This document shows, one piece after another, positions 523 through 24,127 of a DNA stretch of 64,000 nucleotides. The translations under genes and the position numbers were made by a program. Every line of letters starts with the position of its first letter. Positions within the stretch are counted from its first letter, which is position 1. The notes under the pieces are model-generated. The model searched no databases. It saw only the letters and a list, made by a program, of their open reading frames with translations, and was not told the origin of the DNA. Source of the stretch: Brachypodium distachyon (lineage: Eukaryota; Streptophyta; Magnoliopsida; Poales; Poaceae); NCBI RefSeq assembly GCF_000005505.3, contig NC_016133.3:32698737-32762736 (forward strand), read 5' to 3'.

Positions 523-2118
523 GGAGGAGGCGAGGCGGTGAGCCGGTGAGGAGGAAAATGGCGCCGCAGCGTGTTTGGAATGGATAAAAGAACTGCCCAG
601 GTCGATTTTGGCTGTCCCTTCTTTTATTTTTTATTTTTCTTCGAATGGGATTTTGGCTATCACTTGGGGTTTTTACAGGGGAAGAGGTGCCCGATCTTTC
701 GATGAGAATGTAGCTATCGATTATGGTGGAGGTTGAAGTTGACGATCCGACTACAAACGTGCGAGACGTTGTGTTTTAGCGATCGCTACACCAACTTTCA
801 AGGTTATTGACCACGCCGAAGCTAGATCAACTTAGTGCAGAAGGTCGATTTGACACTTGTTCCTATGACGAAGATTAGCAATGGCTAAGTCTTAATAAAC
901 TAAACAAAATCCAAATCTAAACAATTACGTAATGGGGGTATATATGAGGAATAGAGGGGTATGCGGCCAGCCTTGGGAAAGGAGGCCGAAAACCCTCTTC
1001 AGGTCGGTTTCCTTCACCTATACGGACTTTAAAAGTTTAGCCCCTTTATGTGGACGAAAATTACATGGGCCTGGCTCAAACTTGAAGGTGACGCAGCACC
1101 ATATAATTAGGGACAAAATTATGAAGTAGAAAGCTCTATATTTCGTCCACGTCTTCATCGCTTATTATGGTGGTTCTAAAGTTCTGAAATCTCCAATGGT
1201 GGCATCATCTTCAACCCTCACGCGCTTGATGTCATCATCTCCATGCTTGATGTCATCATCTCCATGCGTGATCATGCTCCAGTGCTTGTCCCTCTCATCC
1301 ATGGTAGGTCCATCATTCTTAAGTGTAACAAACACATCTGATTTATGCAGCATCATATTCTCATGTATGTGAGGAATCGTTCCAAGAAACGAAATTACCT
1401 TATAATTAAGTTGGCGCGCACGCGCTCTTGTGAGAGGTCCTTCTGTTGTGGCTGTAGGTGCAGCGGTTGTATCAACATGTGGGATGTCTTCATCAGGTTT
1501 CCCGCAATTCTATTAAAAATCATGAACAACAATGCAAAAAGTTTTAAAAGTAAAATAAAATTATAAATAGGTTCGTTGACCACCTAGCACTAGAATGAGC
1601 TAAAACCGGACCATCATTCTTGCCCCTCCATCACCAGAGCCGGAAAAAAGCTTGCCAAAAGAAAGCTTGTTATAGCAAAAGGTGGTGTAGTCGTCGTTGT
1701 ATTAAGGCCCCAAAGGAGAAACGCACCAGATATACAACTATTGTCAAATGTGAGAACCATAGATCGAAAGAGTCAGGCCCGAAAGCACACAACAAACACG
1801 AAAGCCGGCCGGATCCCAAGAAATTCGTGAGAAACCCGAAAAGCTGACTGGATCCCAAGCAATTCATAGGAAACCTGAAAAGCTGACCGGATCCCAAGGT
1901 ATTTGTTAGACACAGAACTCCACGAGCCGTTCGTCGGCGCTAAGCGTACCACCAGAGTGAGGAAAGGGCAAGGGACGACCTTATTATGATTGTAAGATGT
2001 CGTTGTCGCTCACCATTTTAAAGAGGACACTGGGAAACCAAAAACAAAAGGAAGGAGAAGTCTTTCCGCCAGCGAACGGCCGGGATTTGCCGCACCTCCG
2101 AGGCCATGGAAGCAATCG
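523..2118. other. Intergenic, no supported gene; 39-bp tandem repeat at 1811-1898
   Basis: The first ~100 bases are the likely promoter and 5' UTR of the MutS2-like gene. The rest is AT-rich with only short chance frames. The one clear structure is 2.3 copies of a 39-bp direct repeat beginning GGATCCCAAG at 1811, 1850 and 1889. A short CATGCTTGATGTCATCATCTC-type duplication lies near 1225-1265. Confidence 0.5.
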
Positions 2119-2413
2119 GAGGCTTGTTTGGTGTTATTGTATTTTTTTTAGATACTAATGTTTTGGTATTTGAGGGGTTTGGGTGTTCACCCAAAACTCT
2201 CAAAGCCCAAAACACCGGTGTTTTATAGAAAAACACTAGTATGAGAAGTGTTTTAATTTGGTAAAAAATGAAGTGTTTTGTGGAGGAATACTAGGGATAA
2301 TCCCTCTAAACTCTTACTACCAAACAACCATTTGGGCTTCCTAGTGTTTTTCAATTTGGAGTGAATTATACCCTAGAAAACACTCCAAAAGTTCTGATAC
2401 CAAACAAGGCCTC
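2119..2413. mobile_element. Short inverted-repeat element (hAT-like MITE, tentative)
   Basis: The ends are inverted copies of a GAGGC(C)TTGTTTGGT motif: the left end lies near 2119-2134 and the right end near 2396-2413. The interior is AT-rich and partly palindromic around 2185-2225, with no coding capacity. GGCCTTGTTTGGT-type termini are common in grass hAT-related MITEs. I could not find a convincing 8-bp target duplication, so the exact ends and the superfamily are uncertain. Confidence 0.45.
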
Positions 2414-2676
2414 AAGTGTTTCTCAAGTTTAGGTGCCAAAAATGTACTCGTCAATTATGCTGAAATCTTATGCTGCAGACTGCAGTTAAGTAACATCTAA
2501 CCATGCGTGTAGGAAGTTTTCTTGTTCCTAGAAAGAACAGTTTTCTGAAACAATGCAATGGTTTTTTTTTTCTCATTTAGTGTGTTTATTACGGCATTTG
2601 TTGCAAACTTGAACCCGACATTAATAACTCCCTTAATTTGCAATGTGCTAACTCTGTTACATCAACTTGCTATGCC

Positions 2677-2684
2677 TATAAGTA
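2677..2684 (+). promoter_or_regulatory. TATA box of the small secreted-protein gene
   Basis: TATAAGTA lies about 115 bp upstream of the ATG at 2792. This spacing puts the transcription start near 2710 and gives a leader of about 80 nt. Confidence 0.5.
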
Positions 2685-2791
2685 CACTCGTCTGCCTCGC
2701 CTTGGTTGAAGAAACAGGCTGCATAACAGTCTAAGCAGAACACAGACGGTACGCTCTGTTGATCTAGAGAAAAAACCACAGAAGCGCCAGC

Positions 2792-3217
2792 ATGCCAGCT
2801 TCACGTGTGATGATCCTCGGGCTGTGCCTAATGGGCCTCCTGCTCTCTCCGACGTCAGCCGAGCCACCGCGGCCCAGTCCTGCCTCCAGTGGCGTCGACG
2901 GACGGTGGCCGCTCGATAAGGACTTGCCCGTCGACACGTTGACGGCCCTGCCACCTGGAACGACAGAAGACGCCGCTGTTGACGGAACCGCCGCGGTGCC
3001 TCCGTCGCCGCCGGAGAGGCAACGGTCCAGGATCCCTCGCCACCTTTTCGCGCCCAGTCCGGAGGCCAGACGAGCGCTAGAGCACGAGGCTCGCTGCGGG
3101 CCTCGCATCCATGTGCGGCGAGGCTCCCCGTGGCCGAAGGTGAAACCAGGCTGCCCTGACGGTAGCGATGCGGTTCCTACAGAAGGGGCCGTCCCGGCGT
3201 CTGCGTGGCTCCCGTAG
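2792..3217 (+). CDS. Small predicted secreted protein, 141 aa, unknown family
   Basis: A single GC-rich exon with a typical signal peptide: residues 1-23 contain a hydrophobic core (MILGLCLMGLLL) and a likely cleavage after TSA. The mature part is Pro/Ala/Arg-rich and has only two cysteines (about residues 102 and 120) about 18 residues apart around an Arg/Lys/Pro-rich segment, so one disulfide is possible. No domain is recognised. A TATA box sits at a sensible distance upstream, and G+C falls sharply on both sides, which supports a real gene. An antisense frame over the same DNA (2764-3237) lacks these features. It could be a species- or clade-specific extracellular peptide precursor; function is unknown. 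Confidence 0.55.
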   Translation: MPASRVMILGLCLMGLLLSPTSAEPPRPSPASSGVDGRWPLDKDLPVDTLTALPPGTTEDAAVDGTAAVPPSPPERQRSRIPRHLFAPSPEARRALEHEARCGPRIHVRRGSPWPKVKPGCPDGSDAVPTEGAVPASAWLP

Positions 3218-4266
3218 CAGCCTACGTACGACTTCAAAACTGGACCTTGTTATGTTTTATATGACCACGTACCGGGCATTCTGCAATTTACCAGTACGTT
3301 ACGTGCCAAGAAAAGTCGTAGGAGCTATATATAATAAGCCTCTTGCAAATAAAAAGGTTGCAGTATGGGACGAACCAATCCGCATTTTGTTGATGAAACA
3401 TGTGTCAGATAGCGAGGTGCTTTGGAGAACTCCGCCGGATGTCTCAAGGGGAACCATGACAAGGGAAAGTATTGTTTCTACAGCAAAGGTCTCTTTATGA
3501 GCTTGCAATAGCAGTTAGGAGTAGCAAGTTTTCGCAAGTTCGTGAGCCACCAGGTTAGCTTCACGCGGACTGCTGTACGGAAGTGACCTCTTGATGAAAT
3601 CTTGGGACATGCATGTGAGAGCAATCGTCGTGCACTACTGCCACGGTGCCGTCTCAAGCACAGGGACGTTATCGACAACTGCTTACGGTAAATATCGTTG
3701 ATATTATGGGCCCTGGGGATTGGGGAATGAAGTTGGCTGCCTGCAAAGCGTTGATATTACAAAGTTGACAAAGGGGAAAATTAATGAGTAAACTGATTAA
3801 TTAAGCTAGTGTGAGCTTTAAGTATTTTGAAGAACTAGATTTATCCAATCGGACCTTGCCTAGAGGACGTACAGGGTTTGCCCACTGAGACATCTTGAGT
3901 CCTGGACTTCTGGAAGTGTATGCAAAGTTTGCTTGGCCCACATGTGAGCGTGCTAGATTGCAAAAACGGGCCTCCTGGTCGGACGAAGCGGTCGCTATAC
4001 ACTGACAAACGGGTCGCTGGATGGAGGGTGCAAGAGGGGTCCGGACGGGCTAGCTAGAGGTGCGCACAATGGCACATGCCCAGAGCTATCTCGCTAGCCG
4101 CCTAGCTGGTACTCATAGCAAGTAGCAACCCTGGCTGATGATCTTTAGTTCCCGACACAATTGAGAGGTCGGACATCAACGCATATCAGATCCAGTACAG
4201 GTACACTGATCGATCGAGGAAATAATTTCGATCGCGACGTTAAGCAATATCCCGGGCCGGCCCCTC
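3218..4266. other. Intergenic; 3' flank of the secreted-protein gene
   Basis: No supported gene. An AATAAA at about 3347-3353 could serve as polyadenylation signal for the upstream gene. The remainder is unremarkable single-copy-like sequence up to the LINE poly(T) at 4280. Confidence 0.4.
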
Positions 4267-12430: not shown

Positions 12431-12541
12431 CCCACACGTACGCTCTCCACGAGAAAACTCGAACACATCGGCACACCACGCTAAGAACACGTAGAGTACG
12501 TCCGTGCGTAGAGGCGCTGAGGCGAGCTACATTGGCCACCG

Positions 12542-13264
12542 ATGGCACGTAGCTTCCTCCTCAGCTTGTCGCTGCTGCTTGTCGTCTCGTACTGCTGGTG
12601 CGGCCAACACGCCTGCGCGGGCGCAGTGCGGCCGGCGCCGTTGTTTGGCGAAGGCGGCGGCAACGCGAGCTTCGTGAGGGCGTGGTGCGCGAGGGCGGCG
12701 GAGTACCCGGCGCTGTGCGACTCGACACTGTCCCCGTACGCGGCCTCTGTGGGGGACAGCCCGGCCCGCCTGTCGTGGGCCGCGCTGACGGTGGCCCACG
12801 ACGGCGCGCGCAACGCCACGTCGGCCATGAGGGCCATGGCAGCAGCAGCAGCCCGGGGGAGCAACGGCGCCCTGCCTCCCGTGGCGGCGGAGGCGGTGCA
12901 GGACTGCGTGAGCATGCTCGCGGACGCCGCGGGGGAGCTCGGGGACGCCGCGGACGCCATGGCGCGCGTGGTCGAGGCGGAGCAGGAGGAGAAGGAGGCC
13001 GGCGGCGGCGGGAATTCGAACGACGCGCAGGCGCAGGCGAGGAGGCGGAGGAGAAGGTTCGAGGTGGACAGCGTGCGGACGTGGGCCAGCGCGGCGCTGA
13101 CGGACGGGGACATGTGCGTGGAAGGGTTCAAGGGCGAGGCGGCGGGGAGCGGCGGGAGGAGGGAGGCCGTTCGCGGCCACGTCGTGCGCGTCGAACGCCT
13201 CGCCGCCAACGCGCTCGGCATCGTCAACGCCATGGCCGATGATGATGACCAGACGCCGCCGTAG
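12542..13264 (+). CDS. Plant invertase/pectin methylesterase inhibitor (PMEI) domain protein
   Basis: Intact single-exon gene of 240 codons with a signal peptide (residues 1-27, core LLSLSLLLVV). The mature domain has the four cysteines of the family: Cys49 and Cys59 in the helical-hairpin motif WCARAAEYPALC, Cys122 (QDCVSML) and Cys192 (DMCVEGF). This fold is a four-helix bundle that inhibits cell-wall pectin methylesterases or invertases in the apoplast; which of the two cannot be told from sequence. Between Cys122 and Cys192 there is an extra low-complexity segment of about 25 residues (Glu-rich, four Gly, then six Arg), so this spacing is larger than the usual ~40. Very high G+C, as in many intronless grass genes. 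Confidence 0.9.
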   Translation: MARSFLLSLSLLLVVSYCWCGQHACAGAVRPAPLFGEGGGNASFVRAWCARAAEYPALCDSTLSPYAASVGDSPARLSWAALTVAHDGARNATSAMRAMAAAAARGSNGALPPVAAEAVQDCVSMLADAAGELGDAADAMARVVEAEQEEKEAGGGGNSNDAQAQARRRRRRFEVDSVRTWASAALTDGDMCVEGFKGEAAGSGGRREAVRGHVVRVERLAANALGIVNAMADDDDQTPP

Positions 13265-13470
13265 CTAGCTAGGCGAGGAGATATGTACATGCATGCGTGA
13301 TCGACGGTGGTACGCGCGTACACGTACTACATTCGCCGTGATACAATGTAAAACTACAAGTACGGAGTATGTCTTTTTTTTAGAAAACAGGGACCTAATC
13401 CCCGGCCCCATCTATTAAGATGAAACCCCGCCAAGCAGGTTCATACAAACATACCCTCCCAGAGTCTGCA

Positions 13471-13525
13471 GCTAATTTTTTTTAAATAATACGATTTTTT
13501 TAATCATTTTCAAAAATAATATGCG
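13471..13525 (+). repeat. Left terminal inverted repeat
   Basis: Pairs with 21076-21130. Conserved blocks are GCTAA-T8-AAATAATACG, a T7-AATCATTTT block and AAAAATAAT. A GC-rich block (13550-13760) with repeated CAGTCGGCC/GTGGCCGA words follows immediately and may be promoter DNA. Confidence 0.9.
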
Positions 13526-14279
13526 TTTTTCAAAAATTTCAAAAATAATACGGCCTCGGCCTCGCCCAGGCCGAATGGACCCAGTAGGCCTGGCCCAAGC
13601 CGGTTAGGCCCAGTCGGCCTAGCCGTGGCCGACTGCTCAACGCATGGGGCCCCACGAGACAGTCGGCTTAGCCCAGACCGACTGAAACCCAGTCAGTTAC
13701 GCCGGGGCCTACTGGCTAGTCGGCCGAGCCGTGGCCGAAAGGGGCCTGGGCCCCCGAAATCTCCTTTTTCCCTTTCCCTTCCTTCCTTCCCATCCCTCCC
13801 GTGCCCGCGAGCCCAGCCAGACGAGCCGCCCCTGCTTCTTCTTCCTCCTCGTTTTCTTCTGTTCTTCCTTTTCTCCTCAAATGCCCCAATTTTCTAGCCC
13901 AAATTAGTGCATATTGATCCCATGTAACCCACAAAATCGCATTACCTACCTAGTTGGCACCCAAAGACACCTCGATCCACTGTTTTCATAGGCCATGTAG
14001 AGCTAATTTTGTGGTGCAAAGTTGGAGCAATGGTGGTGATTTGGAGGAGTTTGGAGGTGGTTGTGGTGCTCATCCGGTGACTGTGAGGCTGCTCGAGGTT
14101 GGGGTTCACACGCTTCAAGGGTAAATCCCAATCTCTCACGTATTTATCCTATAATGTATATGTTTACGAGGATACGTGTGTATGTATATATAGAAGTATG
14201 TTTTAGCGTTTGGCAGTGCTCATTATTTTGGACAACGGTTAATGTCGTACTGCTTAGTATTTGATGCGTCTAAATATTA

Positions 14280-14800
14280 TGTCCGGTAGTAATATGTTTT
14301 GGTAGACTAGATTTTTTTTGATGCCGTACTATTTAGTATTTGACGCGTATTAATATTTTAAATCTGCCGTACTGCTTAGTATTTGACGCGTCTAAATAGT
14401 ATGGTCGGTAGTAATATGTTTTGATAGGCTAGATTTTATTTATGCCGTACTGTTTAGTATTTGACGCGTATGGCCTTAATATGTACTCTAATATGTGAAA
14501 TATGTGTTAATTTGTACTCTATGTTTTAATTTGTACTCTGTGTGGAATTATGTTATAATTTGTACTCTATGTGGAACTATGTTATAATTTGTACTCTCTA
14601 TGTGAAACTATGTGTTAATTTGTACTCTATGTGGAACTAAGATTTATTTTGTACTCTATGTGAAACTATGTGTTAATTTGTTCCCTATGTTTTAATTTGT
14701 ACTCTGCGTGGAAATATGTGTTAATTTGTACGCTTTGTTCAACTATGTTTTAAGATGTACTCTCAGTTTAACTATGCTTAACTTTGTATTGTATGTCTAA
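14280..14800. repeat. Tandem repeats in the leader intron of the mobile-domain gene
   Basis: Two families in series. About three imperfect copies of a unit containing GCCGTACTGTTTAGTATTTG and GACGCGTATTAATA lie at 14240-14475. Roughly ten imperfect copies of a 25-35-bp unit containing TTAATTTGTACTCTATGTGG follow at 14480-14800, with further copies at 15385-15440 inside the next intron. Confidence 0.7.
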
Positions 14801-14828
14801 CTATGTTTATAAATGCTGCAGGTACAAA

Positions 14829-16766
14829 ATGAAGAGAGTATCATTGCTATCTCCGCAGATGGAGAGTAAGCATCGGGCTGCTCGATTGGTGGCGCATCCT
14901 GGGAGTGTCGAGCCCCTTGTCACGCGCGCTCCTAAGGAAAATTGGATGATACATCCTGCCTGGATTCAGCGGTATTTATTCATTCATCCCTTGCATGTCC
15001 ATTTTATTCATTCATCCCTTGCATGTTCATTTTATTATTCATCCCTTGCATGTCCATTTTATTTATGCAGTTTGAAGTGGGCTGGCCTTTTACCCTTCGC
15101 ACGACTTGTTGAGGCAACTCGTGGGGAAATGGTAGAGGGCGAGCGACGAGGCTTCAACTCTACACGGCTACAAATTGACCACTCGCAGCTGAGCTGCTTA
15201 GTGGATAGATGGAGGCCCGAGACACACATGTTTCACTTTCGCTGGGGAGAGATGGCTCCTACTCTCCAGGATGTGTCGATGCTGCTGGGACTACCATTGG
15301 TGGGTGATCCCATAGAACCGTTGCAGGCACCAGCTGATTGGCAGGAGGGTATGGCACTTCATTTTCAAGGTATGTGTTAATTTGTGCCTATATTTTAATT
15401 TCTACTCTATGTGGAACTATGTGTTAATTTGTATCCTGCGTTTTCAAGGTATTCTTGCCGAAGCTGGGCCACTCACATTGGAGGCTCACAGACCTAAGCT
15501 AGATTGGTTGCTCAATTACCAGGTTAGATCGATGTGTTTTAAGTTAATATATCTAAGAACATACCTCATATACTTGCATGGGTTTACTAACACTTGGTTT
15601 TTGTTGCATGCAGATTCAGAAGTTTGGATATCCAGAGACCCAAATGACTCAGCCTCAGATCACTCGGAGCCTTGAGGCATATATAATGTGGCTTCTCGGG
15701 AAGGTGATGTTCACCGAGAACCACGTCACCACCATTAGCGCACGCTACATCCCTATTGCAGTGGAGATCGCGAATGCAACTTGTGGTGACGACATCACAA
15801 AGAGGAGTTGGGGTTCGGCTGTCTTAGCGGCTACGTACCGAGGTATGTGCAACGCTTGCCAACTTGCGTCGCCCAAGTCAGCCCTGCTTGGATGTCCTTT
15901 ATTGTTGCAGCTCTGGTCTTGGGAGAGGTTTTCTATCGGCCGACTAGACGTTACGGGTGATCACGCTAACCCTAAGCAGGAGTTGTTTGACTTAGAACAC
16001 ATCGACCTGCCTACTTTCGCGACAATTTGGACATGTAACAAGGTATGTCGAATGTAAGATTTATACATTAGTTTACATAAACCATGAATGAAGCTACCTT
16101 TTTTTTTACAGAGACGCTTTGCACACGATCAGGTCAGGAGTTGCTTCCCATCATTCAACGAGCAGTTCGACGTGTTGCACTCTGAGGCGGTTGTCTGGGA
16201 GCCGTACACACAGCACGCCATCGATGTTAGATACCCTGGCGGGATGTCCATGGTCTGCATGAGAGATTACACTTACTGGATGACAAAATCAAAGATCATC
16301 TTCGACGTCTGCGTGGAGGAGATGGCCCAGCAGAGGGTCATGAGGCAGTTTGGGGCACGCCAGTTGGTCGTTCCTCTACCGACGAAGGATCCACTTCCAC
16401 CGATCGTCCACATGTATGTGCAGTTCTACAATTTATGATTGTCGTTCAGAATTGTCCATAATTTAATTGTTCAACTTTCTATTGCGATCTCAGGTTTACC
16501 AGGAAGGGAAGTACCAGGTCACAGAGTGGGAGACTGCGATGACACGGGTTTGGCCATTGGAGGCCTTTGATCTCGATCTATTCAACGGCTATTTGCAAAG
16601 GTACATGACAGCTACCCGATTGAGCATCATTCAACACTCTCACCCTAGGAGATAGCCGAGCCGAGTTTGCAAGATATGTACCTTAGCCAGTCTACTTCAG
16701 GCTCTAGACAACACGCGGTAAATATTTTCTCTTAACATAATGCATGTGTTTGTTACGTACTTTGCC

Positions 16767-16797
<31 letters not shown>

Positions 16798-16907
16798 TGT
16801 ATGTATGTATGTATGTATGTATGTATGTATGTATGTATGTATGTATGTATGTATGTATGTATGTATGTATGTATGTATGTATGTATGTATGTATGTATGT
16901 ATGTATG

Positions 16908-16938
<31 letters not shown>

Positions 16939-17747
16939 TACTCTTCGTGCCAATTGCAGGCTCAGTTGACACAGATTTACAGGCCGAGTTCGCTGCGTAT
17001 GGATGTTCGCTTTCGACCGGTCCACTTCTACTACCACGGGAGCCGCACCAGTCCTGGATAAGACGAATGGAGGAGAAGCCACGCTTTGTTTACGCAGCTA
17101 TCATGTGCACCCACACTTCAGACGTCGTTCACCACCAGGCATCTGTACGGCCCCTGCGTCCCTCCACGCACCAGCAGCGGCCACGTCAGCAGGAAGCACC
17201 GCACCTCCGACACCACTCGCGTCCACGTCTACCAGAGCAGTCAACGCCCAGGCCACCACCTCCTGAGCAGGCCGAAGGTTCGTTGTGGCACCAGTCGCAG
17301 TCTTCTTTGGACTATTGGCACCAGCAGCAGCCCTCTTTTCAGGCTGGAGGTTCGGCGTGGCAGCACCAGCAGAGTCCCACGATGAACTTTGAGTTTCGTC
17401 CACAGACCTAGCCACAGGGTATGTATATTTCTATCTATTGTGTTCATTACCATAACTGCTATACAATTCTAATGCTAAGTACTTTCCCACATGCAGGAGC
17501 CTACGGCATCAGTCGTCGTTGTCCGAACCCTCGTGAGGTAGTGAGCGGGATCACGCTCAAGGAGAGAACTATTCTGTCCAAACACAGCTGGATGTTCAAT
17601 ACTCCGCCACCAGACCCCACACAGGAGGATACACAGTATCGCGAGGATGGGTCCGTGATTCCTCCGCGCAACGTTGTGCCACCTCATAGGTATGACTGGA
17701 CCACGCCACAGGCACCCCCGGAACGCCGTCCCAGATGCCGTGCCTGA
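14829..17747 (+). pseudogene. Plant mobile domain (PMD, MAIN/MAIL-like) protein, element cargo
   Basis: Exons that splice cleanly: 14829-14971, 15071-15369, 15449-15522, 15614-16042, 16112-16417, 16494-~16655, then less certain pieces at 16960-~17411 and 17496-17747. The start ATG at 14829 follows an acceptor at 14821 and a probable leader exon near 13990-14118. The protein contains the PMD core: LKWAGLLPFARLVEATRGE, FHFRWGEMAPTLQDVSMLLG and the C-terminal FATIWTCNK region, then a Pro/Gln/His-rich tail ending YDWTTPQAPPERRPR. PMD proteins occur in host genes for meristem maintenance and silencing (MAIN, MAIL1) and in plant transposons. The 3' half seems broken: the reading frame shifts near 16640, and the exon after the microsatellite meets a TAA near 17060 in the expected frame. 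Confidence 0.75.
16768..16937. repeat. (ATGT)n microsatellite, ~42 units
   Basis: About 170 bp of uninterrupted tetranucleotide repeat, ending about 20 bp before a splice acceptor (TTGCAG, 16954-16959) of the mobile-domain gene. It gives spurious Tyr-Val-Cys-Met frames on both strands. Confidence 0.98.
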
Positions 17748-17998
17748 TATTTGCATGTAGGACCTATGTATGAGACATATTTCTATCTATGTATGAGACT
17801 TATTTCTACCTATGAATGAGACATATTTATATGTATGAGACATATTTCTACCTATGTATGAGAGAGACATGTTACTATTTTTCGCATTCTTATTCAAGTT
17901 ACATTTGCAAATAAAAAACGGTAGGACTGAAATACATATGCAATAGAAAGACTGAAATTAAAACCGACAACTTAAAATAAGATAACCTAACTCTAGCC

Positions 17999-18559
17999 CT
18001 ATGAAGATGAAATGCTCTTGCCCTTAGAAGATGATGTTCTCTTTCCCTTCGACGGTGCAGTACTCTTCCCCTTGGACGATGAAGAACTCTTACCCGTTTT
18101 GCTTGGCATGAAGATATCTTCATCGGACGATGATGTACTCTTCCCCTTGGACGATGATGTACTATTTCCCTTCGACGGTGCAGTACTCTTCCCCTTGGAC
18201 GATGAAGAACTCTTACCCATTTTGCTTGGCATGAAGATATGTTCATTGGATTTCTCTTCTTCAACCCATAACAATGGATGTTTTCTAGCCCATTGTAGGT
18301 ATGACTCACTCTTACCTTGACTGTGCTTCTTCCACCTTTTGTGCAACCGTAGCAGTTCTTGCCGTATCTTTGCAGAAGTCCTCAATGGGAATCTGCACCT
18401 TCTTAATTGGTGGCCAAGCTCAGTTAGTAGGGTGTCACTACTAATGAGTTCGTCCCATGAAACTATCCTATTGTCTACCTTGAAATCACCGGCTAACCAC
18501 AATAGCCTCTGGGACATACCTGACCAAAATCTACGATCATCTGGGAAACCGGACGACAT
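17999..18559 (-). CDS. Lys/Ser-repeat protein, 186 aa, unknown family, element cargo
   Basis: Open minus-strand frame. An ATG at 18596-18598 is in frame, but it lies only 8 bp from the TATA box (18606-18613), so the next ATG (18559) is the likely start. Residues ~1-95 form a basic, compact N-terminal domain with Trp/Leu-rich motifs (RRFWSGMSQRLLWLAGDF, GHQLRRCRFPLRTSA, RWKKHSQGK) that I do not recognise. The C-terminal half is two long repeats of SSSKGKSTAPSKGKSTSSS preceded by EDIFMPSK, i.e. Ser-rich with regularly spaced Lys-Gly-Lys, like a phosphorylated, disordered nucleic-acid-binding tail. At DNA level this is a ~117-bp tandem duplication (18010-18230). It is divergent from the zinc-finger gene and is the only intact cargo frame. 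Confidence 0.6.
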   Translation of the reverse strand: MSSGFPDDRRFWSGMSQRLLWLAGDFKVDNRIVSWDELISSDTLLTELGHQLRRCRFPLRTSAKIRQELLRLHKRWKKHSQGKSESYLQWARKHPLLWVEEEKSNEHIFMPSKMGKSSSSSKGKSTAPSKGNSTSSSKGKSTSSSDEDIFMPSKTGKSSSSSKGKSTAPSKGKRTSSSKGKSISSS

Positions 18560-18605
18560 CTTCCCAAACGAAATGGTGAGACTACACTTCAATACCATGG
18601 ACGGT

Positions 18606-18755
18606 CTTTTATAGTTACAGAAGATACAAATAGGCGGGAAACGGTGGCGGGAAATGGAGGCAGGAAACGCTGGCGGGAAACGGTGGTGGGAAACGCTAGC
18701 GGGAAAACTAGGCGGGAAACGGTGGCGGGAGAATGAGTTTGAGAGCCTATAAATA
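18606..18755. promoter_or_regulatory. Bidirectional promoter with eight E2F-like sites at 13-bp spacing
   Basis: Between divergent TATA boxes (TATAAAAG on the minus strand, 18606-18613; TATAAATA on the plus strand, 18748-18755) lie eight 9-mers starting at 18633, 18646, 18659, 18672, 18685, 18698, 18711 and 18724. Copies 1, 2, 4 and 7 are exactly GGCGGGAAA, the reverse complement of the E2F site TTTCCCGCC. The others differ by one base: GGCAGGAAA, GGTGGGAAA, AGCGGGAAA, GGCGGGAGA. The 13-bp period is exact. It serves the 17999-18559 gene leftward and the 18866 gene rightward. Functional E2F binding is inference. Confidence 0.7.
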
Positions 18756-18865
18756 CCTCATCTCCGGTAGTCATCCAAGCATCCTTCCCACTACTGTTTT
18801 TTCCAATATTCCAGTGTCCCCCAATGAGCTTGCCTTGCTCTGACCAGGGCTAGAGGCCGAGGAAG

Positions 18866-20889
18866 ATGAAAGAAGCGATGTTGCCTCCGGGGGCGGAACA
18901 TCTCAGGTGTTGGTGCGACAATCTATGCAAGGTGAAGGAGGTGACAAATTTTTCAGATAAGCTAGGCATGAAGTTTTTCATGTGTGCGAACTATGAGCAT
19001 GATCCACCTGTCCCGGTTGTTGGGAATATGCCCTAGAGGCAATCATGTATGATGTAATTTCCAATGTATTCATAAATATTATTAAGTTGTCCTTGTTTGA
19101 ACATCTGATATGTATCATTGAATATGTGATTTGATTGTGGAATTATGTATTCATGTTGTTCATACTAAATTGTCCTTTGTCATTGAGGTTGTGCTGGACA
19201 CATAACCTAGACTAATGTGAAAGTTGGCTGATGACTCAGTTCCACTTGTCATGGGCATGGTGATGTCATTCCAGCTTACACGGACTCGGCTAAAGAGTTT
19301 AGCGAGTCGGACTGACCCATATTGAGATGCAACGAGTAGGTCGTCATTTGCATGTCTCAATCAATGTAATCCTTAGACCTGAGGTTATCGCACAATCCGA
19401 GTTGTGGATCACCAACTTAGGTTCTGTCAAACGTTGTTCTGTAACAGGGCAGTTATAAAGGCAGAGTTCGGGTTGACTGAGAATCAAGCTGTGTGATGTG
19501 GATAACCAAGATGGGATTTTGCCCCTCCGACTGGAGAGATATTCTCTGGGCCCTCTCGAGTGATATGATTCGGGAAGCATGGCCATGCGCGACTTGGTTA
19601 ACTGTTAACCGGGTCGATCGACTAAGAGTTAGTCGGATGAATCATATATCACAGATCGAGAAGAGAGTTGAACTATTAAAGGGATGACGATTAATCGCCT
19701 ATAGTTCGACAAGGTATATCGTGAGGCAAAAGGGACTAAGACGTATGTCACATTGGAAGGTACGTCGTCATGACTCGATGGTACTTGGGAGTCGGCACGT
19801 TCTGCTAGGAGCCGCTACCGATTGATCGATTGTGAGTCGGACTCCAATCGTGTCCAAGTCGCCATGAGCCTGTGGGGTCACACACTTAAGAGCGGGAGCA
19901 AGTATTTGGTCGGGTTGGACCCGAACTGGAATTGGGCTGACAATGCGAGTTGGACTCGCAGGGTGGATGGGCCACAAGGCTTGGAGCCCACTTCCACTCG
20001 ATATATAAGCAGGGGCGTGGGATGCCTAAGGGGAACGGTTTTTCCACTCTCATGCGTTGAGAACCCTAGCCCGATTCAGTTCAACCGTCGCACCGGACCT
20101 AGCAGTCCGCCGCCGGAGCTCCTCCTCGCACGTGTGGATACCGGCAGAGGTGCTGTACGTTCAGCACTTCGACGATCGCGGGATTGGATCGGCTGGATCG
20201 GATCGAGGGACTGCACTGCATCAAGGCGCCGCATCAATAATCCGCAACTGCGCGTCTAGTGGTAATCCTCGTGGCCTTCTACCTCGGCTAGATCTTGGGA
20301 GTTCGCGTAGGAAAATGTTTTTGTTTATCTCTACGCGCCCCTTCACCGGTTTCGTCGTACGACAAGCCTCCGGTAAGCACATTTAGGTGTGCTTAAACAT
20401 GTTGTGTGTGTCATATTCAATTTTTTTGTAACATTAGGCTATTTTGTAGTCTCCTCCGCCCCTATGCATGTGGTATCGTTGGATTGACACGGAGATGCCT
20501 GATTGGACGGTTGAAGAGATTAACACAAGGTCACGAAGTGCATCCACGCGGAGGAGCGTGCGGCAAAAGCTGCAGCCCAGGAGAAAGAGGAGCACGAGAG
20601 AGAGCTCAAAGAGCATAGGGAGGAACAACGTCGTTACTTTGATGAAGCACTGAGGAAAAATAGGGAGAAAGTGCTTTGCATGCAAGAGGAGGAACAAACG
20701 CGCAAGGATGCTCGTGAGGCAGAAAGGGAGAGGCAAAGAGAAAGGGCCGCCGTGGCAAAGGCTGCAGAAGAACGTGGCGATACGAGCGGAAAATGGCCTA
20801 AGACTCAGTGGTGCTTGTACTGTGTTTCAATTGTATTTGCTATCTTTAATTCTGTCCAATTGCGGTATTATCGATGTATGTTATTTTAG
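18866..20889 (+). pseudogene. GRF-type zinc finger plus coiled-coil protein, element cargo, broken by a solo LTR
   Basis: The ATG at 18866 follows a TATA box at 18748-18755. Exon 1 is 18866-19017 and continues at 20351-20372 after the LTR; an intron (20373-20449, GTAAGC...TTTGTAG) leads to the last exon from 20450. Residues 15-75 have the cysteine pattern of a GRF zinc finger: CWCDNLCKVKEV, GMKFFMC, then LCMWYRWIDTEMP. The C-terminal ~110 residues form a long charged coiled coil (EKEEHERELKEHREEQ..., AEERGDTSGKWPKTQW) ending in a short hydrophobic tail. A one-base frameshift lies at about 20520-20545, between finger and coil. GRF fingers bind single-stranded DNA or RNA ends in several nucleases and topoisomerases. 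The role here is unknown. Confidence 0.7.
19018..20345 (+). mobile_element. Solo LTR (Copia-like), 1,328 bp
   Basis: Starts TGTTGGGAATATGCCC, a common Copia LTR start in grasses, ends ...CCCCTTCA, and is flanked by a perfect 5-bp duplication CCGGT (19013-19017 and 20346-20350). Removing it with one duplication copy restores the zinc-finger exon frame. A TATATAAGCA box near 19999 and a second transcribed half support LTR identity. No internal retroelement sequence remains. Confidence 0.88.
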
Positions 20890-21075
20890 TCGTGCCTTGG
20901 TTCTGTAACTAGCAGATTATCGATGTATGTTAATTTATCCAAGTTGTCAAGCTTTCAGTTCAAAAAACCCGCAAGGAATCGACACCAAAATTGTCCAGCA
21001 CATTATCGATGTACGTTAATTTATTCAAGTTGTCAAGTTTTTTAGTTCAAAAAGTCGCAAGGATTCGAGACAAAA

Positions 21076-21130
21076 TGCGTATTATTTTTAAAAATGATTA
21101 AAAAAAGCGTATTATTTAAAAAAAATTAGC
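21076..21130 (-). repeat. Right terminal inverted repeat
   Basis: Reverse complement of 13471-13525 with about four or five substitutions. It ends ...AAATTAGC against the 9-bp duplication. Confidence 0.9.
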
Positions 21131-24127
21131 AAGTCTGCACCAGAAACAATTAAAAACGACAGCCAGAACGAAATAAAGCACTCCATTACAGTTCCAAACA
21201 TCTATCTACCAAAGCCAGCCTCTTTGCAAGAGGACGGATGATCATGCCATACTTGTAGCCAAATTGCGCCTACACCAGGTACATTGGGTGCATCTCCAGT
21301 TCACTGATGTTGAGCACCCCATCTTCTCCCAGGCTGCCAGTCGTGACCTTGGAGGCTTCACAGGAAAGAACCAGCCGGCTCCAGTCCCCTTCTAACACAG
21401 CAGCAAAGGCCTTCTCAGAAGCTCCAGGATCTGAGCAACTCCCTGTGATAGTTGCTCCCGAGCAGGTTCTGGCAGCAGGATACGCCAACCTTTGATGTTT
21501 CGAAGGACCATCCCCCACACCTGTTTGATATTGATCCATAACACATTGTTAAAGATCATGTTATTTCTACATTTTCACAGCCCCAACAGAGCTGCTGCTG
21601 ACACAAGATTAAACACAGCCATCGTCTTATGATTAATCCAGTGCCTAGCTAGTGATTCAAAATCCACCACAACAATATTAAACATGGAAGCAATGTCAGC
21701 CCATATATTCCTAGCTACCACACAGTCAAAGAACAGGTGCTTGATAGATTCATGTTCAGTGCAAAACACACAACCTAAAGGTTTTTTCATTTTTCTTTTA
21801 GCCATATTATCTCTAGTCATAAGTTTGTTCTTGGCCAGCAGCCAAAGAAAGATATGAATTTTCGGGGGAACTATCGCTTTCCACATGACAGGTAAGAAAA
21901 CAGGGGTAACACCTCTATTATTAACAATTTTGTATAAAGAGCTAGAAGAGTAATGTCCATTGCTCTCATATTTCCAAATCACAGCATCTTCCTCATCTGT
22001 AAAGCTAATTCCACTAGCTATTGCCTCTAACTCTCTCCATTGTTCCATCATTTGTTCAGAAAAGATCCTCCTAAATGTGCATCTTATGTTTCTACCATCC
22101 CAGACCTCTCGAATGGTCATGTTAGGTTCATTCAAAACAGAATATAACTCCCAGAAGTGAGTAGCTAAAGGTATAGTGCCAAACCAGTTATCCTCCCAGA
22201 ACCGAATCCTATTTCCTTTCCCTAGAGCCCACCTATAGCCAAATTTAACTACCTACGCAGCTTGCATCACCCCCCTCCAGAAGAAAGAGTTGTTACTTGC
22301 CTTGTAGCAAAAAATATTTGGAGAAAACACACCATATTTTGCATCAAACACCTGATTCCACGGCCGTTTTTCCTGCTGGAACAGTCTTTTGATCCAAGGA
22401 CCTATCAAACAGATGTTCAAATCTTGTAAGTTTGGTATTCCTAAACCACCAAATTCCTTCCTCATACAAAGAGATTGCCAGTTCGCAAGGTGTACTTTGT
22501 GGTGCCCCTCATAGTCATTCCACATGCAATTGGCCATTTGGGAATTAATTAACTCTAGTGCCCATTTAGGGAAAATCAGAAAGGACAGAAGGTACACCGG
22601 TATGCTGGCCAAACACGCTTTTACTATGGTGAGTCTGCCCCCACTGGACAGGAGTTTCCCCCTCCACCCAGCAATCCTACTTATGAGTTTGTCCACCACA
22701 GGTTGTAAGTCTTCCCTCCTTAAATACTCATGGTGCAAGGGTATGCCTAAATATTTAATAGGGAAAGCACCCTCAACACATTGGAAGATATGCATGAAAG
22801 GTCCAATTTCTGCCCTATCCATACCTACGCCAATTAGCTCACTCTTATGATAGTTGATTCTCGTTCTAGATATATGCTCAAAGCAAGTTAAAATCCACTT
22901 AAGATTAATTGCATTCCTTTCCTCGGGTGCAACAAATAACAGTGTGTCATCGGCGTATTGCAAGCTGATCACACCCCCCTCACACAACTCAGGACACAAG
23001 CCTTTGATGAGCCCAGCATCTGCCCCTTTACTCAACATCCTAGCAAACACATCCACCACTAGGTTAAAAAGTAGTGGCGACAGGGGATTCCCTTGTCTCA
23101 GACCTTTTCCAGTAACAAAACTATTTCCTTCAATGCCATTTAACTTGACTCCCACGGAGCCACCTTTTGTCACCGATTGGATCCAATTGATCCACCTCTG
23201 ATTGAAACCTCTAACTCTAAGTACCTCCAACAGAAAGTCTAAATTCACTTTGTCGTAAGCTTTTTCGTAGTCTAACTTTAAAACCAACCCTTTCCTCTTA
23301 GAAGTGTGTACCGAGTGCAAAATTTCATGTGCTACTACGACACTTTCCAAAATGTACCTTCCCTTAATAAACGCTGATTGATGATGTCTAATCAGCCTTT
23401 CCATCAACAAAGCTAATCTATTAGTGAGAACCTTGGTAATTTATTTGAAAATGCAGTTCAACAAACTAATAGGTCTAAACTTTTTCATAGATCTAGCATC
23501 ATTTTCCTTAGGAATGAGTGTAAGAAATTTAGCCTATACAGGTCTAGATTGTTTTCCCACCAGCAGTGGAACATAGCCATTATATCATTTTTAAGGATGG
23601 TCCAATATTTTTTGTAAAAACAGGAAAGACAGCCCATCAGGCCCCGACGCTCCCTCAGCATAAGAATCAAAAAGAGCCTTCCTAACCTCCTCCTCTGAGA
23701 ACCTAGCTTCCAAGTCCACATTTTCCTCCTGCAGAACCTCCTCTTCCTCAGAAAAGAAATCCCCCCTAAGTTTCAAATTGGGTTTCTGTTCAAAACAGAA
23801 CAGCTCCTTGTAAAAATTAGTTGCAATCTTCATCATCTCCTCAGATTCATATATTGGGCCCTCAGGCCCATCTAGGACATGTATGATGCACTTCCTCCTT
23901 CTTTGGTTAGCCACGGCTTGAAAGCATTTAGTATTCCTATCTCCTTCTAAAATAAATCTCTCCCTAGCTCGCTGTCTTGTTTTGGTTTCCTCTTGACACC
24001 ATATTTCATTAATCCTCTTACTTAGACTGTGCATTCTTCTGCTGTTAATTGGACAGTCTCAGCTTTCCTATCTAGAATATCATATTCCTCCAAAATCTCT
24101 TTTTTGTGTTTCCTCATAAACGCCTCC
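21131..24127 (-). pseudogene. LINE ORF2: reverse transcriptase and zf-RVT region
   Basis: Minus-strand blocks in order: linker before RT (to 24034, with ARERFILEGDRNTKCFQ), RT core 22253-23410 (HHQSAFIKGR, LKLDYEKAYDKV, GLRQGNPLSPLLF and the catalytic YADD in SLQYADDTLLF), and the zf-RVT-like C-terminal part 21575-22135 (PPKIHIFLWLLAKNKL, GCVFCTEHESIKHLFFDC). Frameshifts and stops separate the blocks. The RNase H and 3' UTR region is degraded from 21131 and continues at 13470 on the other side of the nested element. Confidence 0.85.

Follow-up and report, generated by a model that had tools for sequence, protein, structure and literature searches.

The plant mobile domain (PMD) proteins MAIN and MAIL1 are silencing factors in Arabidopsis, and PMD genes are also carried by Mutator-like elements (MULEs). 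The subject here is one such element of Brachypodium distachyon, located at positions 13,471–21,130 of a stretch of 64,000 nucleotides (contig NC_016133.3, positions 32,698,737–32,762,736 of the forward strand; the whole stretch is called the window), together with its relatives in the same genome. It contains a PMD gene, an antisense gene for a protein with a lysine/serine-rich tail (K/S) and a gene for a protein with a GRF-like zinc finger and a coiled coil.

Several described MULE groups resemble this element in part. In grasses, PMD-C is fused to MULE transposases, and capture by transduplication and a use in anti-silencing were suggested for it (Ikeda et al., 2017; PMC5418596). PMD is present in plant MULE groups 42 and 45–50, in sense or antisense orientation (Dupeyron et al., 2019; PMC6446971). 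These elements share with the present family a transposase that has a PMD gene or domain as its neighbor or fusion partner, and 9-bp target site duplications (TSDs), whereas the available parts of both descriptions mention no Lys/Ser SANT-like gene, GRF gene or tandem array. In the present family PMD lies on the transposase strand, and the in-frame fusion of the two seen in one copy (L041) is a by-product of internal deletion.

Abermu is a large grass MULE having a transposase ORF1, an ORF2 and an antisense ORFR of variable presence (Gao et al., 2022; PMC9168764). A variably present antisense open reading frame (ORF) and 9-bp duplications are common to Abermu and the present family, but Abermu is described with GGG...CCC termini, terminal inverted repeats (TIRs) of 138–145 bp and TA-rich duplications (PMC9168764), whereas the present family has GCTAATTTTTT... 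termini, TIRs of 59 to ~227 bp and duplications that are not TA-rich, and its extra ORFs resemble those of Abermu in layout. VANDAL elements with VANC combine a MULE, one or more accessory genes and non-coding tandem repeats (Hosaka et al., 2017; PMC5735166); the likeness rests on this layout and on the tandem array, not on protein homology. MuDR (mudrA/mudrB) also has a transposase and, encoded on the other strand, an accessory gene (as summarized in PMC9168764), but K/S of the present family starts internally and not from the right TIR. Pack-MULEs are likewise non-autonomous MULEs with gene pieces, but the genes in the present element are those of its own family. Thus, PMD-bearing MULEs and MULEs with extra or antisense ORFs are already published, and the combination of K/S with GRF is the variant. 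No description of this combination in MULEs was found in open-licence PMC text, Repbase, TREP and subscription papers lying outside that search, and a named Repbase entry for the family may well exist.

The window copy is most probably (about 90%) a non-autonomous, internally deleted derivative of a four-gene MULE family. The fuller members are ~9.0–9.5 kb long and consist of a left TIR, a 43-bp tandem array, a MULE transposase gene, AT-rich tandem repeats, the PMD gene, the antisense K/S gene (in one sub-lineage), the divergent GRF/coiled-coil gene and a right TIR, with 9-bp TSDs. The family transposase would act both in cis and in trans on the termini that the copies share, and the window copy would either have been moved in trans on these termini or have become transposase-free once inserted. 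PMD, K/S and GRF are then best viewed as transposon accessory proteins and not as captured host passengers; one or more of them may bind element DNA or chromatin and aid expression or mobility, possibly via the 43-bp array. The window copy itself would be at most a passenger, supplying neither transposase nor PMD nor GRF protein in intact form.

The element as observed, with TIRs, a TSD and PMD, K/S and GRF-like genes, is confirmed. Its ends read GCTAATT...AATTAGC. The inverted repeats that a first-pass annotation, made from the letters of the window alone, had put at ~52 bp are present and extend to 59 nt (93%), and in one relative, L040, to ~227 bp (87%). The 9-bp duplication with one mismatch was read correctly (GAGTCTGCA and AAGTCTGCA). 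In the genome searched (271.3 Mb, 11 contigs), the 23-bp terminus has 202 sites with up to two mismatches (99 forward, 103 reverse), and its reversed control has none. Pairs of neighboring opposite termini among the terminus matches listed gave 19 elements with both ends read, which, being chosen in this way, are a non-random sample. Their flanks match at 9/9 in ten cases and at 8/9 in four, and none of 342 mismatched pairings reaches 8/9. Other copies that share these termini and have 9-bp flanks thus exist, and the assignment to the Mutator superfamily holds on the 14/19 flanks and the 202 shared termini. The family has the features of a MULE: TSDs of 9 bp (8–11 being allowed), TIRs and a MULE transposase domain.

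The transposase was found in the longer relatives. L039 has, in broken frames, matches to the MuDR DNA-binding, MULE (PF10551, 2.2e-18) and SWIM domains in the interval from its left end to PMD. L040, with 9.0 kb between its termini, has a single uninterrupted transposase frame, 908 aa long when counted from its first Met and with PF10551 at 1.6e-19, in which D428, D491 and E660 presumably form the acidic triad, accompanied by a C2H motif; the flanks of L040 itself do not match. A search of the window element with a relative's transposase found no remnant (tblastn, best E = 1.2). Alignment of the element with these two relatives jumps at one junction, from ~1,298 to ~4,062 in L039 and from ~1,667 to ~4,426 in L040 (flipped), and the 43-bp array of the window copy is joined directly to repeats that in L040 come after the transposase stop codon. 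This jump and the missing remnant identify the window copy as an internal-deletion derivative. Others of this kind are L072, of 2.9 kb and with a perfect 9-bp flank, and L041, in which an internal deletion has placed PMD in frame with the transposase (980 aa; 951–3890). Since the L041 fusion was born of a deletion, some published fusion proteins may be secondary. Homologues of the transposase reach 75% identity in Lolium and ~40% in rice; among 120 listed, 36 combine a MULE domain with a PMD domain, Lolium P0159 and rice P0189 being examples, and none of the 120 is fused to K/S or to GRF.

Linkage of the genes was tabulated from genome searches with one PMD exon (at least 135 matches), a GRF exon (at least 154) and a piece of the MULE transposase (at least 129). 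The set used comprises 106/135 PMD, 134/154 GRF and 112/129 transposase rows and all 40 terminus rows, the rows left out being short matches, matches of low identity and additional pieces of a copy already counted. Among the matches listed, 80 of the 106 PMD loci have a transposase match on the same strand within 9 kb upstream, 91 have a GRF match within 9 kb downstream, and 71 have both. GRF matches placed at random give a mean of 0.2 and a maximum of 2 of 106. The linkage of K/S and GRF to a MULE is a result for this one genome.

These results settle most of what the first-pass annotation had proposed. It was right that the window copy has no recognizable transposase and is non-autonomous, the gene having gone by internal deletion, and that the cargo belongs to a multi-gene mobile unit, as the shared termini, 9-bp flanks and PMD/GRF co-occurrence demonstrate. 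Its expectations that the cargo genes co-occur in further copies and that longer relatives encode a MULE transposase (L039, L040 and the 80/106 loci) were borne out, and a conserved module, not random capture, accounts for transposase and GRF at 71/106 PMD loci, compared with 0.2 for GRF at random. Calling the unit as such transposase-less was mistaken; the term fits the window copy, not the family. The fixed layout of three genes is seen here, but as a fixed trio it fails, because 43 of 91 copies fall into a K/S-minus class.

This K/S-minus class is defined by gene spacing, and K/S is gone in all eight of its members that were read. Alike breakpoints suggest that K/S was apparently lost once. 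Since the K/S-minus sub-lineage spread, K/S cannot be essential. In a tree of 30 PMD loci (topology, with K/S labels taken from spacing), L026, labeled K/S-plus, falls within the K/S-minus group, and the long branches L027 and L037, as well as L018, lie outside a simple division into K/S-plus and K/S-minus.

The K/S protein has a conserved N-terminal domain of ~100 aa followed by a Ser/Lys repeat tail. It has 168 homologues at E ≤ 1e-3, wheat among them, and a median dN/dS of 0.36 (36 pairs, 9 copies; L080 left out, its frame being broken). No credible Pfam match was found among 42 members scanned, no Pfam-type relative was listed by Foldseek at E ≤ 0.001, and a PDB sequence search gave no match; scanning viral contigs with the K/S alignment gave 61 pattern matches, 0 of which were confirmed. 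The predicted model has pLDDT of ~83–96 per 10-residue block over residues 11–90 and weakly resembles SANT/Sap1, no other fold family being prominent in a comparison with 51 chains; the domain is thus weakly suggested by the model to be Myb/SANT-like. It represents a protein family for which no matching Pfam entry was found.

The three PMD frames of the window copy match PF10536 at 1.2e-18, 5.6e-19 and 6.3e-9 (67.8, 69.0 and 35.9 bits; family cut-off 34.9), and the reading frame is broken downstream of the domain. Relatives occur genome-wide at 92–95% identity, with a dN/dS of 0.61 for the PMD exon (269 pairs, 24 copies). Matches at 43–45% identity with open frames of 251–435 aa were also found at C6:24336944, C6:24382373, C6:20743417 and C5:19832319 (G000); these are probably other PMD lineages, either host genes or parts of other MULEs.

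GRF fingers have the ligand pattern CxC ... C ... C with FFxC and C-x-Y-Y-x-W-I-D. In the GRF-like protein, C29xC31, C54 and C79 with FFMC and YxWID are kept in most alignment rows, in a region where the model has pLDDT <50. PF06839 scores 15–17 bits in relatives of the gene (15.2–16.8 in four full-length proteins), below the cut-off of 25.9, and covers profile positions 1–33 of 45. Model confidence is low over residues 1–88 (pLDDT <50), and the second half is a confidently predicted long helix; a PDB sequence search gave weak HMG/coiled-coil matches only (best E 0.01). Of the GRF-finger/coiled-coil gene first proposed, the gene and its helix-forming half stand, and the finger does not reach the family cut-off. 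Full-length homologues of 196 aa, 57–65% identical, occur in wheat (one row) and barley (eight rows), the barley clusters having up to 127 members each. In the window copy the gene contains an early in-frame stop codon, and a solo long terminal repeat (LTR) interrupts it; both go beyond the first account of the locus. GRF fingers, which the conserved pattern resembles, bind single-stranded DNA in APE2 (PMC8593216). One of the family's helper-like genes may code for a DNA- or chromatin-binding protein of a new type.

The core of the 43-bp unit (TACTGCTTAGTATTTGACGCGTC) is present four times in the window copy, and six times in L039, 11 in L040, 17 in L041 and 15 in L072; in the window outside the element it was not found. 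Genome-wide it has 1,073 sites with up to two mismatches (control 0). Of 100 sites listed, 95 have a family match no more than 10 kb away, compared with a random mean of 1.6.

Several observations weigh against a transposase-bearing family as the source of the window copy and against the roles suggested for its genes. Among the matches listed, 26 of the 106 PMD loci lack a transposase; at one of them (C1:12926615) the left arm is nevertheless full-length as judged by its terminus, and the 26 include some misses due to the capped scoring of the search. Four of the 19 elements have no flank match, and one further has 10 bp with one mismatch. The assignments of K/S to SANT and of the third gene to GRF are both weak.

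Other origins of the window copy are far less probable. Independent insertions nested by chance between AT-rich repeats that have nothing to do with each other would agree with the AT-rich terminal repeats and with the solo LTR, which is a nested insertion; given the empty terminus and flank controls and a gene order kept at dozens of loci, this reading was rejected, and its probability is negligible. The idea that PMD or GRF is a novel mobilizing enzyme in place of a MULE transposase, which had been left open at first, could draw on the window copy and on the 26 loci without a listed transposase. It is scarcely credible and was rejected, because an intact-frame MULE transposase is resident in the longer members of the family, and the 9-bp duplications are those expected from such an enzyme. 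A Pack-MULE, that is a non-autonomous element with three captured host genes or fragments, would look much like the window copy with its split genes and missing transposase, and PMD genes are known also as host genes (PMC7156037). Capture is, however, very unlikely: transposase-bearing copies have the identical gene order, with transposase, PMD and GRF together at 71/106 PMD loci, the genes have full structures, K/S and GRF have homologues in multi-copy clusters in other species, and dN/dS is below 1 for K/S and PMD. It was rejected because the cargo is common to the transposase-bearing copies.

A further proposal concerns what the accessory genes of the four-gene family might do. In VANDAL MULEs, the anti-silencing VANC proteins bind to short motifs that tandem repetition has spread, and their targets are often tandem repeats (PMC5735166). 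By analogy, PMD, K/S and/or GRF might recognize the 43-bp array of the family itself (core ...GTATTTGACGCGTC) and make chromatin accessible for transposase expression. Such self-licensing is a tentative possibility. It is consistent with arrays of 4–17 units in five copies, the 2.9-kb derivative included, with the concentration of the core near family matches, with the weakly SANT/Sap1-like K/S model, and with the speculation that an anti-silencing pathway of MULEs makes use of captured PMDs (Ikeda et al., PMC5418596). Slippage also makes tandem arrays, however, K/S is dispensable for spread, and the likeness to VANDAL/VANC is architectural only, none of the three proteins being tied to VANC. 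Somewhat more doubtful is the full version, in which a PMD protein, a new, Ser/Lys-tailed SANT-like protein and a GRF/coiled-coil protein would together form a licensing module that overcomes silencing by way of the array, a monocot counterpart of VANDAL/VANC built from unrelated proteins. If so, the K/S-minus sub-lineage would consist of cheaters using the K/S protein of others, or of copies with shifted specificity. The family bears on why MULEs carry PMD genes and on the molecular role of PMD, and it offers many dated natural variants, with or without transposase, with or without K/S and with 4 to 17 repeat units, so that it can be asked which accessory gene serves what.

Table 1. Features of the MULE copy, in window coordinates.
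Feature	Position	Strand	Remarks
Left TSD	13462..13470		9 bp, GAGTCTGCA; agrees with right flank at 8/9
Left TIR	13471..13529	+	59 nt; 93% complementary to 21072–21130
Rfam MIR7729 match	13971..14056	+	109.9 bits (gathering 92); 5' region of the element
43-bp tandem array remnant	14245..14470	+	Four core units; in relatives upstream of transposase
Deletion junction	14471..14491		Relatives hold ~2.7-kb transposase gene here; BLAST of element against L039 and L040
AT-rich tandem repeats, ~29 bp	14476..14808	+	Upstream of PMD; TRF; also in L039 and L040
PMD gene	14829..17747	+	Several exons; PF10536 in three exon frames; exon limits read from frames
TATG microsatellite	16768..16937		42 copies, perfect; apparent PMD intron; TRF
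K/S-spanning segment	17980..18627		Gone from K/S-minus relatives; breakpoints alike within a few bases in 9/9 compared
K/S gene	17996..18559	-	186 codons and stop (17999–18559); frame open and intact
Short tandem repeats	18631..18735		GGCGGGAAA-type; separate K/S from the divergent GRF gene; TRF
GRF-like zinc finger and coiled-coil gene	18824..20810	+	Second exon from ~20450; 3' limit approximate
Solo LTR	19018..20345		1,328 bp, TG...CA ends; flanks CCGGT (19013–19017) and CCGGT (20346–20350)
Right TIR	21072..21130	-	59 nt; 93% complementary to 13471–13529
Right TSD	21131..21139		9 bp, AAGTCTGCA; agrees with left flank at 8/9

MIR7729 is an miRNA family of Brachypodium and has been listed as rare (PMC8156279). 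The hairpin of the match in the element is weak (z = -1.55), and no match was found in L039, L040, L041, L072 and L018; of these, L039, L040 and L072 span the region and stay below threshold. The annotated MIR7729 miRNA may be transposon-derived.

On the left of the element, an invertase/pectin methylesterase inhibitor gene (12521–13264; PF04043, 4.8e-26) ends ~200 bp upstream of the insertion. Just to the right, at 21578–22252 on the minus strand, lies a zf-RVT domain (PF13966, 1.1e-22), probably part of a remnant of a reverse-transcriptase gene of non-LTR type.

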